From assembly GCA_022822005.1 (NCBI GenBank), contig JAJECO010000062.1, forward strand, positions 124,001-188,000: DNA of 64,000 bases. The letters are read 5' to 3'. The notes under the pieces were generated by a model. That model worked only from the letters and a program-made list of their open reading frames with translations. It ran no database searches and was not told the DNA's origin. Below, piece after piece: positions 22,573-42,593 of the stretch. Source of the stretch: Candidatus Poribacteria bacterium (lineage in GTDB: Bacteria; Poribacteria; WGA-4E; PCPOR2b). Position 1 is the stretch's first letter. Each line of letters begins with the position of its first letter. A program made the translations under genes and the position numbers.

Positions 22573-23322
22573 TCAAGGCTTCTCCATCGTGAAGCGGAAG
22601 TGACTTCTGAGGAAATAGGACAGCAGCTTATTGCCTAACAGGACTCTCCCCGGAGAGCGGAGTGTGTTGAAAGCGGTCCATCTGATACTCGGATTAGTGA
22701 ATCCAACTTGGCTTAGCAGATCCGTCCAGACTTCTGGCGCCTGATGTTTATGCCACTCTATCGTGGGAGCGAAGGGATTCCTAACTCTGAGTAAGGCGAA
22801 GACATTATATCTGGAGCAATCGCAAACGATTAGCTTTGTCCCGCCATTTGCGAGTGAACTGAGTTTTGAGAATATATTCAGATAAATCGCCCTGGACGCT
22901 TTATTGTTGGGCAGGTTGATGCACGCAATTTCATCTAAGTGGTTTATTGAGTTGTGGAGTAAGATAACGTCGAATTGCTTCCCTCCGGGATCAAAGGCTT
23001 GAAATGTAACGGGTTCAAACTTCACCTGATCCTGCCTGAGAATCTCACCTAACTTCCCAAACTTTTCTCTCGTCCCAGAGCGACTGCCCTCCGTTTCCGG
23101 TTCGAGACATACAACCTCCTTAGCCCCCATACACGCCACATAGAAGCTGTGTAAGCCGCTCCCTCCGCCGATATCCAACACTCGTCTGTTCTCAAGAGCG
23201 ATGTCCTTGAACAAAGTTTTCAGGTGGAATTGAAGATTACCTCTATTTGGATATAATCCTTCTTTGATGACAGCAGTGAAGTAATTTTCAAGGGTTGGCT
23301 CGGTTGGTATTTCAATTTTCAT
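22573..23322 (-). CDS. Class I SAM-dependent methyltransferase
   Basis: This 249-residue protein has the cofactor motif VLDIGGGSGLHSFYVA, followed by an acidic end of strand 2 (VVCLEPE) and FDVILLHNSINHL at the motif IV position. The C-terminal part is hydrophobic and aromatic. The acceptor is unknown. Its ATG overlaps the stop of the AhpD-like selenoprotein gene in TAATG, so the two are translationally coupled and the methyltransferase is likely made only when the selenoprotein frame is read to its true end. It converges on the cupin gene, 22 bases away. Confidence 0.82.
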   Translation of the reverse strand: MKIEIPTEPTLENYFTAVIKEGLYPNRGNLQFHLKTLFKDIALENRRVLDIGGGSGLHSFYVACMGAKEVVCLEPETEGSRSGTREKFGKLGEILRQDQVKFEPVTFQAFDPGGKQFDVILLHNSINHLDEIACINLPNNKASRAIYLNIFSKLSSLANGGTKLIVCDCSRYNVFALLRVRNPFAPTIEWHKHQAPEVWTDLLSQVGFTNPSIRWTAFNTLRSPGRVLLGNKLLSYFLRSHFRFTMEKP

Positions 23323-23900
23323 TAGTCTCCAACCGCAGGTTGTGATGGCAGATCTGTCGCGTCAAGAAAGTCCTCCAACTCAACCCCAAGTGCATCGGCA
23401 ATCCGGTTGATGGAATTGAAGAACCCGACAATCTCAACAACATCGAAGATTGCTTCGTCATCCAAGCCGTGTGATCTGAGCAAATCCAAATCTGATGGTT
23501 GAACCGTGTACGTGGCAAGGGTGACTTTCTCTGCAAATTCCAAGATTGCTCTCGTAGCTGCGTCCAAATCCGCGGATCGGAAATCGGTTTTGATTTGACG
23601 CACCAATTGATCCTCACTGACCTGTTCCCGCAGGTCTTCGCCGTGCGCTTGCACTCAGTATCGGCAGCCATTAATTTGCGAAACCACTGTCGCTATCATC
23701 TCCCGTTGCGCTCGACTCAATTTGGAGGGACCAAGCATGATAATCTCATACTGATTGACGAACGCTTTGAGGCTTTCCGGCTTGATACTGAACAACTTGA
23801 CGATATTGTAAACTCGGCCGGCACGCTCAATTCCTGCATCATATTCTTCCTTGACGATGCCTGTTGCCTCTGACTCGGGGACTGTTCGGATCCATGCCAT
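23322..23900 (-). CDS. AhpD-like peroxidase-related selenoprotein (CxxU), read through in-frame TGA
   Basis: Read as one frame from ATG 23900 to TAA 23322, this encodes 192 residues with a single internal TGA at 23657-23655. The two flanking pieces join perfectly as an AhpD/carboxymuconolactone-decarboxylase protein of the peroxidase-related type (WIRTVPESEATG..., SRAQREMIATVVSQINGCRY, then U, VQAHGED...). The TGA falls at residue 82, exactly where the second cysteine of the redox motif CxxC sits, giving Cys79-Arg-Tyr-Sec82, with the conserved His86 after it. AhpD-like CxxU selenoproteins are known from marine metagenomes. A perfect hairpin follows 18 bases downstream. The likely role is peroxide or hydroperoxide reduction. 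The alternative is a pseudogene with a nonsense mutation, but the position and hairpin argue against it. Confidence 0.88.
23619..23636 (-). promoter_or_regulatory. Bacterial SECIS-like hairpin of the AhpD selenoprotein
   Basis: On the mRNA, GACCTG and CAGGTC form a perfect 6-bp stem with loop CGGGAA. The apical loop begins 24 bases after the UGA, and the second loop base is G. Known bacterial SECIS elements have a loop 16-37 bases after the UGA, with a G in the first two loop positions. A smaller hairpin GUGC-AAGC-GCAC directly follows the UGA. Confidence 0.75.
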
Positions 23901-36894: not shown

Positions 36895-37656
36895 ATGGAT
36901 TGGCAGAAGGATTCAGGACAACTCAAGGAAGCGTTTGACCGAGATGGATTTGTGGTCATTCCCGGCTTCTACACACCGCAAGAGACGGAGGCGTTAAACG
37001 CTCACATCGACAAGTTTATCGCGGAAACGTTGCCCGGATTGCCGTCGAACGCAGCCTTTTACGAAGCCAAAGGACAGACCGAAAGCATTATGCGGCTGCA
37101 GGGCATGGCATCTTACGACGACCACTTTAAGGAACTCACTGAGAGCGATCGGTTTGCCAAGCTGGCGGAACTACTATTAGATGATGGGGTTATAAGCCAA
37201 AATATGGAGTGGTTCACAAAACCCGCCGGCAGCGATGCGGAGACGCCACCCCATCAGGACGGGTTCTATTTCATGCTCGAACCGAACGAGGCACTGACGT
37301 TGTGGCTGGCGCTGGATACGGTGAATGATGATAACGGCTGCATCCATTATGTACGGGGTTCTCACCGCCGAGGTATGAGGCCCCACGGACAGACAGCGGT
37401 GTTCGGGTTCTCTCTCGGAGTCACGGACTACGGCGAGACGGATTACCAAGAGGAGGCAGCTATCCATGCTGCGCCGGGTGATATGATCGTGCATCACTGC
37501 ATGACGATTCACCGTGCGGGTTCCAATGCCACCCCAAATCCGCGCCGGGCATTGGGGCTGGTCTATTACGCCCAACGCGCCAAAGCGGATGCAGAGCGTC
37601 AGGAAGCGTATAAGAAAGAGTTAATGGAACGGTGGAAAAAAGAGGGGAAAATATAG
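36895..37656 (+). CDS. Phytanoyl-CoA dioxygenase (PhyH) family protein 4
   Basis: This 253-residue protein has an intact triad: His120 and Asp122 in PPHQDGFYF, distal His206 (MTIHRAGSN), Arg217/218, and RGSH at about 154-157. The AGGAGTTCAG before ATG 36895 is a good site. It is the first of three PhyH genes in a row on the same strand (36895, 37788, 38809), each with its own spacer. Homologs with HQDGFYF are frequent in poribacterial and planctomycete genomes. The substrate is unknown. Confidence 0.9.
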   Translation: MDWQKDSGQLKEAFDRDGFVVIPGFYTPQETEALNAHIDKFIAETLPGLPSNAAFYEAKGQTESIMRLQGMASYDDHFKELTESDRFAKLAELLLDDGVISQNMEWFTKPAGSDAETPPHQDGFYFMLEPNEALTLWLALDTVNDDNGCIHYVRGSHRRGMRPHGQTAVFGFSLGVTDYGETDYQEEAAIHAAPGDMIVHHCMTIHRAGSNATPNPRRALGLVYYAQRAKADAERQEAYKKELMERWKKEGKI

Positions 37657-37680
37657 AGGTTCAAAATTAACTGGTGCAAC

Positions 37681-37737
37681 AGAAACCGAGTTTTTTCCGA
37701 AGTACGGAACGCAGATCTGCGTTCCGTACGGTTTCTC
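37681..37737. terminator. Hairpin after PhyH 4 with a perfect 28-base palindrome
   Basis: Bases 37702-37729 form a complete palindrome (GTACGGAACGCA, centre GATC, then the complement). Outer arms AGAAACC and GGTTTCT extend it to 37681-37737. It lies 25 bases after the PhyH stop. A terminator role is inferred; it may instead be a repeat element. No long T tract follows. Confidence 0.45.
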
Positions 37738-37787
37738 TTCACGCTTTGCACTTTCTTTTTATAAGCCACCACTGATAGGAGTAAGCG

Positions 37788-38564
37788 ATGCTGACCGATG
37801 CACAACTCTACCACTTCGCTGTTCACGGCTGGGTGCTTCAGGAGAACGTCTTCAGCTCTGAAGAAATTGATGCCTTCAAATGCGGACTGGATCACCTCTA
37901 TGAACGCAAAGTCTCGACGATGAAGGACAGCGAGGACATCAAGAATATCAATAACATGGTGAACTATGACTCAATCTATCGGGATTGGATCATGTCACCG
38001 AAGATTCTTCCCGTTCTGAAGCAGCTTTTGGGAACACCACCCCGTTTTGAGTGCTGCCACGCGATGATAAAATCCCCGCACCCCGATCGATCAACACGGC
38101 GCGATGAACTTCGAGATGCGGAAAAGATGGGGTGGCATCGCGGCATTCGACCGAAATATGGTATTGTACCGGCGAACAATAATCCCTACATCAACACAAC
38201 ATTCCTCAACAACGCTACCTACCTGACGGACGTTAATCCCGACAATGGCGGCACAATGATCTTGGACGGCTCACACCGGATCGAGGCGCAGGATTGGAAA
38301 GAAATCTTCGATCCCGCGATGGTCGTTCAGATTGAAGCAAAGGCAGGATCGGTGATGCACTTCACGGAGGCGTTGGTTCACACCGGCGTCCCGATCCTCT
38401 CCGATCGAACCCGCTATACGATGTTTTACGGTTTCACCCCACCGTGGATGCAGTGTTGGCCCGGCTGCAGCCCGACGCAGGAAGTGATTGACGCCAGCGA
38501 AGGCGAACTCAAAGAAATTCTCGGAGGCCGCACAGGATATATGGGGCAGTACGGACCTGAGTGA
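37788..38564 (+). CDS. PhyH family protein 5, HxG variant (possible halogenase-like)
   Basis: This 258-residue protein is a distant paralog of PhyH 3. It also has HRG instead of HxD: GWHRGIRP with His117 and Gly119 (codons CAT CGC GGC). Distal His198 (EALVHTGVP) and Arg207/209 are kept, and the turn is DGSH. The shared TYLTDVNPDNGGTM-like region and the C-terminal GFTPPW block match PhyH 3 (TYLTDVGPDDGGTC, GYTPPM), so the two form a subfamily. The Gly at the carboxylate site raises the same halogenase or inactive-paralog question. AGGAGTAAGC lies just before the ATG. Confidence 0.87.
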   Translation: MLTDAQLYHFAVHGWVLQENVFSSEEIDAFKCGLDHLYERKVSTMKDSEDIKNINNMVNYDSIYRDWIMSPKILPVLKQLLGTPPRFECCHAMIKSPHPDRSTRRDELRDAEKMGWHRGIRPKYGIVPANNNPYINTTFLNNATYLTDVNPDNGGTMILDGSHRIEAQDWKEIFDPAMVVQIEAKAGSVMHFTEALVHTGVPILSDRTRYTMFYGFTPPWMQCWPGCSPTQEVIDASEGELKEILGGRTGYMGQYGPE

Positions 38565-38808
38565 GTAGAAACCTGCGCACCCAAAATTTGAGTCCCTTAT
38601 AATACCGTTTCCGAATAATTGTGTCGCATCAAGTTTTGTGGGAACAAGGGTTTGTGGGAGCGAGTGTGTGAGTATGTGAGGGAGCGTGTTCTTTTACTCG
38701 TCTCCTCGCTCACTCGCCTCCTCTTTCTCTCGCCTCACGTTTTACGTTTCACGTTTCAACAATGCGTTATCCTTTGTCAGAATTGGTATAAGAAGGAGGA
38801 GGTATCCG

Positions 38809-39615
38809 ATGTTATCCGATTTGGAAGTTGGGCAGTTTTGGACATTCGGGTTCACTGTCTTGAGAGGCTGCCTGAGCGAAAATGAGGTAGACCGTCTACA
38901 GGAGGCACATTGTCGTGTCATTGCAGACGCGCCGGTCTACAATTATTTCGCTGAGAACGGCACACGGATGCTTAGCCCTTTTGTCCAAGTGGACGATGCT
39001 TTCGCAGATTTAATCGAGCATCCCGGTGTGATGGAAGCGATGCGCGATATCTGGGGGACGGAGTGCCTCTACATTGCCGGTAGCGATATGTGGGCGAACC
39101 GAGACCATACCCCTTGGCACACCGACGGTCAGCCGGGCCGACAGAACGCCACGCTCAAGACCGCCATATATCTTGATGAGCAATCCAAAGGCTTCGGATC
39201 GTTGAACCTGATTCCTGGCAGCCACCATCCCGAATACTCTGCGGCCCTCTTCCGCTCTTGCGGTTACTGGGACAGAGGAAGACCCCGCCTACGGCTCGAT
39301 CCCGATGCAATTCCGGGAGCCCTCTCCGTGCAAACCTATCCCGGAGACATCGTGCTGTGGGACAATCGCCTGTGGCACTCCGCCTTCAAGCGCAAAGACG
39401 GGCAGCCCCGACGAACGATGTTCATCGGCTATATGCCGGACCCCCAAGACGACCTACTCGCACTCAAAGACCTTCGGACGACAGTTGAAACCCAAATAAC
39501 TGAGGGGCAGCCATGCGTCTATAGCAAAGAGATGATGGAGAAGGGCAGCCCTCGGCGTGAGAAGATGGCGGCACGGTTAGAGGAATTAGGCGTGGAAAAG
39601 GTGAGAGAGTTATAA
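38809..39615 (+). CDS. Phytanoyl-CoA dioxygenase (PhyH) family protein 6
   Basis: This 268-residue protein has an intact triad: His104 and Asp106 in PWHTDGQPG, distal His190 (NRLWHSAFKR), Arg201/202, and PGSH at 136-139. ATG 38809 follows AAGGAGGAGG, an excellent site. The frame extends to 38686, but that part is the dispersed TTTACGTTTCACG repeat and is not coding. It closes the run of three PhyH genes and sits 18 bases before a Gfo/Idh/MocA gene, with which it is probably co-transcribed; oxidation followed by dehydrogenation of one substrate is plausible. Confidence 0.9.
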   Translation: MLSDLEVGQFWTFGFTVLRGCLSENEVDRLQEAHCRVIADAPVYNYFAENGTRMLSPFVQVDDAFADLIEHPGVMEAMRDIWGTECLYIAGSDMWANRDHTPWHTDGQPGRQNATLKTAIYLDEQSKGFGSLNLIPGSHHPEYSAALFRSCGYWDRGRPRLRLDPDAIPGALSVQTYPGDIVLWDNRLWHSAFKRKDGQPRRTMFIGYMPDPQDDLLALKDLRTTVETQITEGQPCVYSKEMMEKGSPRREKMAARLEELGVEKVREL

Positions 39616-39633: not shown

Positions 39634-40704
39634 ATGACGAACAGATCTCAACCGCTGCGTATCGGCGTTGTTGGCTGCGGTGGCTTTGGACGTGGCGCTT
39701 ATGTGAACAATGTCCCTGAAAACCGTGATGCCAGTTTGGTCGCACTCTGCGACATCGATTTGGGACAGGCGGAAGCGGCGGCACGTGAAGTCTTTGATAA
39801 AGGAGGCAGAGAACCGCGTCCAGCGCTTTACGCAGACTATAAAGCGATGATTGACCAAGAATCCCTCGATGTGGTCATGGTCGGGACGATGGCAGATGTC
39901 CGTCCGCGTGTAGCGATCTATGCGTTGAATGCCGGCGCCCACGTCCTCGCTGCCAAGCCGATGGCACCGTCCTTAGCAGAAGCAGAGAAGATGCTCCAAA
40001 CAGCGAAGGAAGTGGACAGGATTTTGATGGTCGGCTATAACTTCCGATTCCGGGATGATGCACAGATCGTGCACCGTTTTATCCGCGATGGCGGTATCGG
40101 GACACCTCGCTTTGCCCGCGCTTGGTCGTTTGCGCCCAGCGTACCGATCCGCGGACCCCACTACAAAGCGGGGTCGGGTGGCGGCTCACTCGCCAGAACA
40201 GGGGTTCACACGATGGATCTGGCGATCTGGTTCCTCGGCAGCCCGCCCCTCATCTCTGTGCATGGACGGGCGCTTTCACGTTTTGCCGACCTTCCCGCGC
40301 TGCCCCCCGAATTGGAATCCCTTCGCGGCGACTACGACGATCCAGATCTGGTCAGTGGTTATGTCCAGTTCGCCGATGGGGTCACGCTGTCCGTCGAGAG
40401 TATGTGGATGGCACCGCCGCAGATTGGCGATCATGGTGTCGAGGTGTGGGGGACGCACGGTTACGCCTCGGTGACACCGTTACGATTGCTGACTTGGCAG
40501 GATGGAGATTATGTTGACGTGACCGAGCAGGTAGCACCGGGTATTGCGGATTCCTTCCATGATGACTGGCACACACGGATACGACGCGAGGTCTTTCACT
40601 TTATCGATTGCGCTCTTGGCAGATCGACACCGCTTGTAACGCCGGAAGAGATGTGGACGGATCAGGCGATTGTGGAGGGGATCTACGCCAGCGTGAACGC
40701 CTAG
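39634..40704 (+). CDS. Gfo/Idh/MocA family oxidoreductase 1
   Basis: This 356-residue protein has the Rossmann motif RIGVVGCGGFGRGAYV at the N-terminus and the family site AKP (HVLAAKPMAP) where most relatives have EKP, then GVHTMDLAIWFLG with the catalytic-type His. These enzymes oxidise or reduce sugars, inositols or their acids with NAD(P). The Glu-to-Ala change in EKP is unusual but tolerated in some branches. The start follows AAGAAGGAAAG. The gene's end overlaps the end of the selenoprotein gene on the opposite strand by four bases. Confidence 0.85.
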   Translation: MTNRSQPLRIGVVGCGGFGRGAYVNNVPENRDASLVALCDIDLGQAEAAAREVFDKGGREPRPALYADYKAMIDQESLDVVMVGTMADVRPRVAIYALNAGAHVLAAKPMAPSLAEAEKMLQTAKEVDRILMVGYNFRFRDDAQIVHRFIRDGGIGTPRFARAWSFAPSVPIRGPHYKAGSGGGSLARTGVHTMDLAIWFLGSPPLISVHGRALSRFADLPALPPELESLRGDYDDPDLVSGYVQFADGVTLSVESMWMAPPQIGDHGVEVWGTHGYASVTPLRLLTWQDGDYVDVTEQVAPGIADSFHDDWHTRIRREVFHFIDCALGRSTPLVTPEEMWTDQAIVEGIYASVNA

Positions 40705-41261
40705 AGAAACGCCTTCTCCCTCGCTTCCGCCGAGACATCCCACGCACGATCATATTCATAATCGTCCCGACGCGCCAACAGTGCTCGCAAATCGTGCCGC
40801 AGCTCCTCTACTGTGGGTCTTCCGACATACCACCAACCGTTGTAAATCTTGTAAATTTTGCGATCGCCGTCGAGGACAAAAGTATAGGGTATAGGGATCG
40901 GCGAATGGACGGGATCTGTGTTGTCTACGATGTCGAGCTCATTGATTAACGCCCGGTCAAGGTCAACCAAGAAGGGCCATGTCGCACCGATACGCTCGCG
41001 CAGTGCCCTCGTTGTTTCCTGATCATCAACTGAGACCGCGATTAGCCTACAGTAGTTGACCTCCAATTCGGGTTGCAGGTCTTTTGCGTAATTCTCCAAC
41101 TGGAGAACATCCTTCGGTCAGTATGCTCCCCGCCAAAAGACGAGGATCGTGGGCCATCCACGCATCAAATCCTCCAGCGTTCTGATTATGCCGTCTTGGT
41201 CGGGACGTTCAAAGTTTGGGATTTTGTTACCGGATATCATCAAATCTTCGCGGATTTTCAT
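40701..41261 (-). CDS. Peroxiredoxin-like selenoprotein, read through in-frame TGA
   Basis: Read as one frame from ATG 41261 (GGAGG five bases upstream) to the stop at 40701, this encodes 186 residues with one internal TGA at 41120-41118. The two flanking ORFs join as an AhpC/TSA (redoxin) protein: MKIREDLMISGNKIPNFERP, then TILVFWRGAY, Sec48, PKDVLQLENY, later IPYTFVLDGDRKIYKIYNGWW. Sec sits where peroxiredoxins have the peroxidatic cysteine (RGxYCP), here with Asp three residues on instead of a second Cys. A perfect 6-bp hairpin follows. Prx-like selenoproteins are known from marine metagenomes. The expected activity is reduction of peroxides with thioredoxin or glutaredoxin. A nonsense pseudogene is the alternative. 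Confidence 0.9.
41092..41107 (-). promoter_or_regulatory. Bacterial SECIS-like hairpin of the peroxiredoxin-like selenoprotein
   Basis: UUCUCC and GGAGAA form a perfect 6-bp stem with loop AGUU; a further G-U pair extends it. The loop starts 16 bases after the UGA and has G then U in positions 2-3, as in many bacterial SECIS loops. The distance is at the lower edge of the known 16-37 range. Confidence 0.75.
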
Positions 41262-41319
41262 CTTACCCTCCAGTTTCATGAGACCACATGAAACCTTATC
41301 AGGATTCAAGGATCAACAA

Positions 41320-41426: not shown

Positions 41427-42593
41427 TCACGAGGCTTGTACCTCTTCCCAACGCTCCGTTTTCCATGAGCGCTCAATCGCCCCCAACACCTTAGCCACCG
41501 CTAATGCCTCACGAAAAGTAGGTTCACCCGGACCTCCATCTCGAATGGATTGCAAAAATTGATAGGATTCAATCATTTTCAAATCTTCGTAGCCTAAGCC
41601 GACACCAGGACCGGGATTGAAATGTGCATGAAACGGGTGTTCAGGTCCGCTCATGATACGGGTGTAACCGTTAGGTCCGGCATCGTTGTCGGACAGCAAT
41701 AGATGGAGTTCATTCATCCGCTCGAAGTCCCATTTTATAGCGCCGCGTGTGCCGTGGACTTCAAACGCCATCTCACACTGGGGTCCATTTATGACACGAC
41801 ACCCCTCCAGTGTCCCGTGTGCCCCATTTGAAAACCGTACCAGCGCACCGACATAATCTTCGTTGGTAACTTTGCCTGTTGGACCATCTGTGCGAACAGA
41901 AAAATGCGTACCTTCGCCGGGGGTGGCAAGCGGACGTTCTGAGACGAAAGTCTCGCGGTTGCCCACCAAACGCTTAATCGGACCGGCAATTAGCTGTGCC
42001 ATATCAACGACATGCGACATCAGATCGCCCAAGGTTCCCAACCCTGCCACCTCGCGCTGAAAACGCCACGACAGCACAGCGTGAGGATTGCTGGCGTAAC
42101 CCGCAAAGAAACGTCCACGATAGTGGGTGAGATCGCCGAGGTGACCTTCCTCAATGAGTTGGCGTGTGTGCTGCACAAGCGGTGCCCACCGGTAATTATA
42201 ACCCACGCGGGTTAAAACCCCTGCTCGTCGAGCGGCATCTTCGATGGCGGCGGTCTCTTGTGGATTCCGACCGACGGGCTTCTCACAGAAGATATGCTTG
42301 CCAGCCTCGGCAGCCGCCATCGCAATTTCGAGGTGCATACTGTTTGGCGCGGTGATGTTGACGAGTTCTACCTCTGGATCGGCAATCACCTGTCTCCAAT
42401 CCGTGGCGCACCGTTCAAAGCCCAAAAACGCCTGTGCTTCACGGGCGCGGGCTTCCACCGCATCGGCGCAGATAACCAAGCGCGGTTGAACCCCACAGTC
42501 CTGAAAACGGATGGGAATCTGTCGGTAGGAACGGCTGTGCACAGTCCCCATCCACCCCATACCGATGACACCGATGCCTATCGTTCGCGTCAT
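41427..42593 (-). CDS. Gfo/Idh/MocA family oxidoreductase 2
   Basis: This 388-residue protein has the Rossmann motif [16 protein letters not shown], the EKP motif ([10 protein letters not shown]) with intact Lys, and [14 protein letters not shown] at the His-x(3)-D active-site position. The C-terminal beta domain is complete. A sugar or inositol dehydrogenase is likely, substrate unknown. It follows the propeller gene (42622-43245) by 28 bases, so the two are one transcript. Its initiator ATG is at 42593 without an outstanding ribosome site. Confidence 0.88.

Follow-up and report, generated by a model that had tools for sequence, protein, structure and literature searches.

A predicted selenoprotein with a Sec-Pro-Lys-Asp active site belongs to an unnamed redoxin branch found in Poribacteria and other bacterial phyla

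The 64,000-nucleotide stretch of a Candidatus Poribacteria contig (JAJECO010000062.1) analysed here, referred to as the window, carries at positions 40701..41261 of its minus strand what we consider, on solid sequence grounds, to be a selenoprotein gene. Within the peroxiredoxin/thioredoxin superfamily, its predicted product groups with a small branch that has so far had no name and that we refer to as UxxD, and its Sec-Pro-Lys-Asp site is new to published lists of bacterial selenoproteins. The original prediction of a selenoprotein gene at this locus is borne out by the presence of selenocysteine (Sec) machinery, by Cys/UGA pairs among relatives, by a covarying SECIS hairpin and by purifying selection past the UGA.

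The gene was delimited by translation with TGA read as U, by its match to the PF00578 profile and by its orthologues. Its frame runs from an ATG at 41261 to a TAG at 40703-40701 (minus strand) and the single interruption is a TGA at 41120-41118, exactly where it had been placed previously; under the standard code the gene is split, again as anticipated, and the ORF list shows two ORFs. Reading the UGA as Sec instead yields one protein of 186 amino acids (MKIRE...FWRGAYUPKDVLQ...KAFL*), in which the codon at 41118..41120 (minus strand) becomes Sec48 of the motif RGAY-U-PKD, an assignment supported by UGA/Cys-codon pairs among relatives. The window sequence also contains a ribosome-binding site, GGAGG at 41267..41271 (minus strand), 5 nt before the ATG, and a purine-rich, SD-like stretch lies upstream of the ATG in most orthologues. 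In profile searches the window protein scored 69.9 bits against PF00578 (gathering score 26) and also matched PF08534, and PF00578 was matched by 32/32 family members. The 3' end of the gene abuts a convergent ORF (39634-40704) and its start lies approximately 165 bases past the stop of a same-strand ORF (41427-42593), an arrangement of flanking ORFs that makes transcription on its own, or as a distal gene, probable. Synteny is confined to the genus, and we found no operon partner conserved beyond it. Gene neighbourhood was dropped as a clue to function; in Anaerolineaceae, a neighbour that resembles disulfide reductases is encoded on the opposite strand. Elsewhere in the window (36895-39615, plus strand), three phytanoyl-CoA-dioxygenase-like ORFs, assigned by eye, sit beside sugar-dehydrogenase-like ORFs.

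Eight Poribacteria genomes from the window's family, its own genome included, possess the gene at 76-99% identity and all eight share the UGA, with the remaining Poribacteria genomes yielding far weaker redoxin matches of at most 55 bits. A wider orthologue scan, taking one genome per species, returned 44 loci, and in all 20 distinct Sec-form sequences the UGA falls in one column. Besides Poribacteria, these derive from metagenome-assembled genomes (MAGs) of about eight other phyla, namely KSB1, Acidobacteriota, Neomarinimicrobiota, Gemmatimonadota, SAR324, Nitrospirota, Rokubacteria and, in one MAG, Chloroflexi, and the recurrence of the same in-frame UGA in the eight Poribacteria genomes and in MAGs of other phyla excludes a chance UGA. 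Alignment with Cys homologues, which the original prediction had put forward as a check, placed TGT or TGC at this column in 20 distinct orthologues, mainly from Chloroflexi, and RGxx(U/C)PKD is invariant in 41/41 aligned members. On a maximum-likelihood tree, Sec and Cys forms are separated by five changes, at least three of which are forced by supported branches. The relatives' records are mostly metagenome bins, and single odd placements, such as that of a SAR324 sequence (L097) in the Poribacteria branch, may represent binning errors or transfer. Across the 100 codons 3' of the UGA, comparisons with five relatives (L029, L030, L031, L094 and L034) gave dN/dS values of 0.02-0.07, such that free decay of the downstream part, which had been named as evidence against a selenoprotein, is not seen; dN/dS values 5' of the UGA are not trusted for L094, L034, L035, L063 and L097, where the simple pairing is thrown out of register by a one-codon indel. 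On one betaproteobacterial contig (L095, 4001-4321), the downstream part occurs alone (residues 64-170) and the upstream sequence is unreadable in frame. That the UGA is instead a true stop, whether in a pseudogene, through sequencing error or between two separate genes, would agree with the two ORFs obtained under the standard code, but it is exceedingly improbable given a UGA shared by eight genomes, relatives with a Cys codon in its place, strong constraint past it and a hairpin that covaries.

This hairpin, of the bacterial SECIS type and supported by sequence and covariation, spans 41092..41107 (minus strand) and reads UUCUCC-AGUU-GGAGAA, with a loop that starts 16 nt past the UGA. It agrees letter for letter with the earlier description of a perfect 6-bp stem with an AGUU loop, ten bases past the UGA. 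The bSECIS model specifies a loop of 3-9 nt, a stem of 4-16 bp, a spacing of 16-37 nt, a G within the first two loop positions and a minimum free energy (MFE) <= -7.5 (PMC13188914 Fig. 2), and the window hairpin lies within all of these bounds, having a 4-nt AGUU loop in which G is second and U next, a stem of 6-7 bp, a spacing of 16 and an energy of -8.4 kcal/mol. In single-sequence folding, the energy of this lone hairpin is unremarkable relative to shuffles (z -0.9 and -1.2), and we rate it above chance because it covaries across relatives rather than because of its energy. In the alignment of Sec sequences (n=20), a stem of 5-6 pairs is kept together with an AGUU loop starting 16 nt past the UGA; 94% of cells are paired and, with the outermost pair counted, 21 are compensatory. 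The two inner pairs vary on both sides (G-C/U-A and C-G/U-A), and the covariation score was reached by 0/500 shuffles and lost when the partners were slid. The residues encoded by the stem likewise vary pairwise, with CTC...GAG (Leu/Glu) in one clade and CGC...GCG or CGT...ACG (Arg/Ala, Arg/Thr) in others; the covarying hairpin thus shows a protein sequence shaped by RNA structure. A five-pair stem is kept in 20/20 Sec sequences versus 3/20 Cys sequences (Fisher p 2.6e-8, which is indicative only since the compared sequences share kinship). The selD gene of the source genome has an AGUU loop as well, on a 7-bp stem 17 nt past its UGA. One betaproteobacterial Cys orthologue (L074, 3041 region; TGC) retains a perfect SECIS-type hairpin with an AGTT loop, perhaps as the fossil of a recent Sec-to-Cys change.

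The original prediction held that an absence of Sec machinery would speak against it, and we therefore note that selA, selB, selC and selD are all present in the source genome (6.0 Mb, 97.8% complete), which its near relatives place among the Poribacteria. A tRNA-Sec with anticodon UCA (76.2 bits, over the cut-off) forms one cluster with selB (369 bits) and selA (602 bits), which adjoin on contig C78, and selD (370 bits), on contig C66, has its own in-frame UGA in the motif TCGUAAK. A genome-wide reassignment of UGA, for example to Trp or Gly, would also produce in-frame UGA in several genes, but we give it practically no credence because TGA ends 15/45 ORFs >= 200 aa in the window, the in-frame UGAs examined sit at redox-motif positions that are Cys in relatives, and the genome holds the full Sec machinery.

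The selenoproteome of the source genome was sampled family by family, and several other genes emerged. The window holds another selenoprotein gene (23322-23900, minus strand), which encodes an AhpD/CMD-family, peroxidase-related protein (TIGR01926, 156.7 bits) of a known CxxU family; its UGA at 23657-23655 lies in INGCRY-U-VQAHG and is followed by a hairpin, GACCUG-CGGGAA-CAGGUC, whose loop starts 24 nt past the UGA. Approximately 3.7 kb past the window end, two adjacent peroxiredoxin matches (C51:191728-192549; L103 and L104), each with an in-frame TGA and with the motifs FTGGUTTELR and FTGGUTAEV, represent tandem true TxxU selenoperoxiredoxins. Further redoxin selenoprotein genes are located at C68:43024 (L105; UPNS within RGTWUPNS, a UxxS type), C39:33620 (L106; UPSC) and C19:116613 (L115; UPSC). 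Many long Poribacteria redoxins of approximately 370 aa (e.g. L038-L056) have RGGWUPFC with an in-frame TGA and, taken with selA in 72/85 Poribacteria genomes (53/56 of the good ones), make this phylum look rich in selenoproteins. Our search of the open-licence literature found no selenoprotein papers on Poribacteria.

Where the original prediction put the Sec at the peroxidatic cysteine, our alignments place it elsewhere: U48 lines up with the Thr/Ser of PxxxTxxC, and D51 occupies the peroxidatic position. The Asp51 codon (41109..41111, minus strand) thus encodes the residue at the peroxidatic-Cys place of true peroxiredoxins, and the earlier reading of the second motif residue as Asp holds for 41/41 members. 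RGAY-U-PKD, with Asp at the peroxidatic column, is not a peroxiredoxin PxxxT/SxxC(U) motif. In profile alignments, the Sec column coincides with the Ser/Thr of 2cx3 (PAAFSPVC), 5epf (PAAMTPGC) and 2ywn (PAAFTQVC), whose peroxidatic Cys residues align over D51, and in ResA (CPHC, CEPC) the first Cys takes the Sec column and the second that of D51. Within the source genome itself, the true peroxiredoxins YPKDF-T-GGU and YPLDF-S-PVC have Thr/Ser at the Sec48 column, and the paralogues RGEF-U-PSC, RGTW-U-PNS and ATW-C-EPC have Sec/Cys there. An AlphaFold model (pLDDT 89.3) sets Sec48 directly N-terminal to helix 49-68, a predicted location that fits a CxxC-type nucleophile. The nearest folds to this model in Foldseek searches are PrxQ/Bcp, AhpE and ResA; a search of a viral structure library gave no useful match. 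Judged by alignment, these comparisons show Sec48 at the N-terminal nucleophile position of a thioredoxin-type CxxC, with the partner position occupied by an invariant Asp.

Selenoproteins listed for this superfamily are of the types TxxU, UxxC, UxxU, UGC and UxxS (PMC2398784, PMC1088965, PMC9312934, PMC13188914). UxxD is absent from published selenoprotein tables and from the selenocysteine papers searched (open-licence main texts), and earlier unlabelled sightings under the term 'Prx-like' are possible. The marine Prx-like selenoproteins to which the original prediction linked the gene (GOS Prx-like 1; PMC2398784, PMC13188914) share its PF00578 fold and the first-position Sec of a CxxC-like motif, but they are UxxC or UxxU, with Cys or Sec as the second residue where the UxxD family has an Asp in every one of the 41 members. 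The AhpC/TSA UxxS selenoprotein (cd02970/PF13911, PMC13188914 Table 1) has a similar RGxxUPxS-type site with Ser instead of Asp51 at the second position; PF13911 was weak in 4/32 UxxD members (best E 0.014) and is not listed for the window protein. Selenocysteine peroxiredoxins (PxxxTxxU) are alike in superfamily and fold, but there Sec is the peroxidatic residue, whereas the UxxD protein has Asp51 at that place and Sec at the Thr position. The ResA/TlpA thiol-disulfide oxidoreductases, whose first CxxC Cys aligns with Sec48, differ by a second Cys that the UxxD protein is missing, and no N-terminal export signal is apparent in the UxxD sequence; the NCBIfam ResA model gave below-cut-off matches in 29/32 members. 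SelL-related redox proteins (NF040769) matched all 32 members weakly (best 1.4e-9), and the window protein lies far under the cut-off of that model (22 vs 120 bits). The window protein fell short of the cut-off of every NCBIfam model, and the UxxD branch is not claimed by any curated family model.

On comparative evidence, the UGA is decoded by SelB, directed by the hairpin right after the codon, and we think it likely that the resulting Sec48 redoxin, with Asp51 as partner, depends on an outside thiol to free its oxidised Sec. The selenolate of Sec48 would attack a disulfide, a sulfenic acid or a hydroperoxide. The resulting Se-S or Se-OH intermediate would then be reduced by an outside thiol, either a low-molecular-weight thiol or thioredoxin, which would be needed because the motif is without a second Cys; this cycle would resemble that of monothiol glutaredoxins or glutathione peroxidase (GPx). 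For Asp51 and the invariant NGWWxGRPT segment (141-150), a role in tuning both selenolate and substrate pocket is probable. H119 and P125 are also invariant, P125 probably being the cis-Pro of the fold, and with NGWWxGRPT they are candidate pocket residues. All Sec forms have Cys71, which is conserved in 36/41 members overall. In the model it stands at the start of strand 72-77, after a helix of 20 residues starting at Sec48, which puts it near the far end of the fold; an intramolecular Sec48-Cys71 bridge is therefore unlikely on the predicted secondary structure. If such a bridge were formed between molecules across a dimer, the protein would be non-monothiol. The one-Sec mechanism originally proposed is plausible but tentative, since Cys71 is so conserved, although it is predicted to be far from U48.

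The UxxD redoxin is most likely either a monothiol-type reductase or a GPx-like peroxidase, peroxidase and disulfide reductase activities being indistinguishable by sequence. The original proposal of a 1-Sec peroxidase, in which H2O2 or an organic peroxide would oxidise the Sec, draws on PF00578 membership, on PrxQ/AhpE as structural neighbours and on the GPx-like UxxT selenoproteins, a precedent for peroxidase chemistry with first-position Sec (PMC13188914). Set against it are the absence of PxxxTxxC, with Sec at the Thr and Asp at the Cys position, the failure of the GPx model PF00255 to match any of 32 members at E<=10, and the separate true TxxU peroxiredoxins of the same genome, which together leave a hydroperoxide-reducing enzyme possible but doubtful. 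A deiodinase-type dehalogenase-like enzyme with a Sec-Pro site acting on organohalogens was considered and set aside as very improbable: deiodinases also have a Sec-Pro pair and the deiodinase-related NF038285 weakly matched 2/32 members (E 0.0054), but PF00837 was unmatched at E<=10 in all 32 and no deiodinase appears among the top 50 Foldseek matches.

Beyond the monothiol redoxin that we favor, we tentatively raise the less probable idea that UxxD redoxins form a separate selenoenzyme class, in which an N-terminal selenol would work with an Asp partner, perhaps as general base, and no resolving Cys on a substrate unlike those of peroxiredoxins and thioredoxins, and which would have spread horizontally with repeated Sec/Cys switching. 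The UxxD subfamily is an addition to the prokaryotic selenoproteome, and, from the wide occurrence of selA, Poribacteria emerge as a phylum that uses Sec. Together, the Sec and Cys orthologues form a clean set from about a dozen phyla that offers a direct test of the benefit of Sec in a monothiol site.
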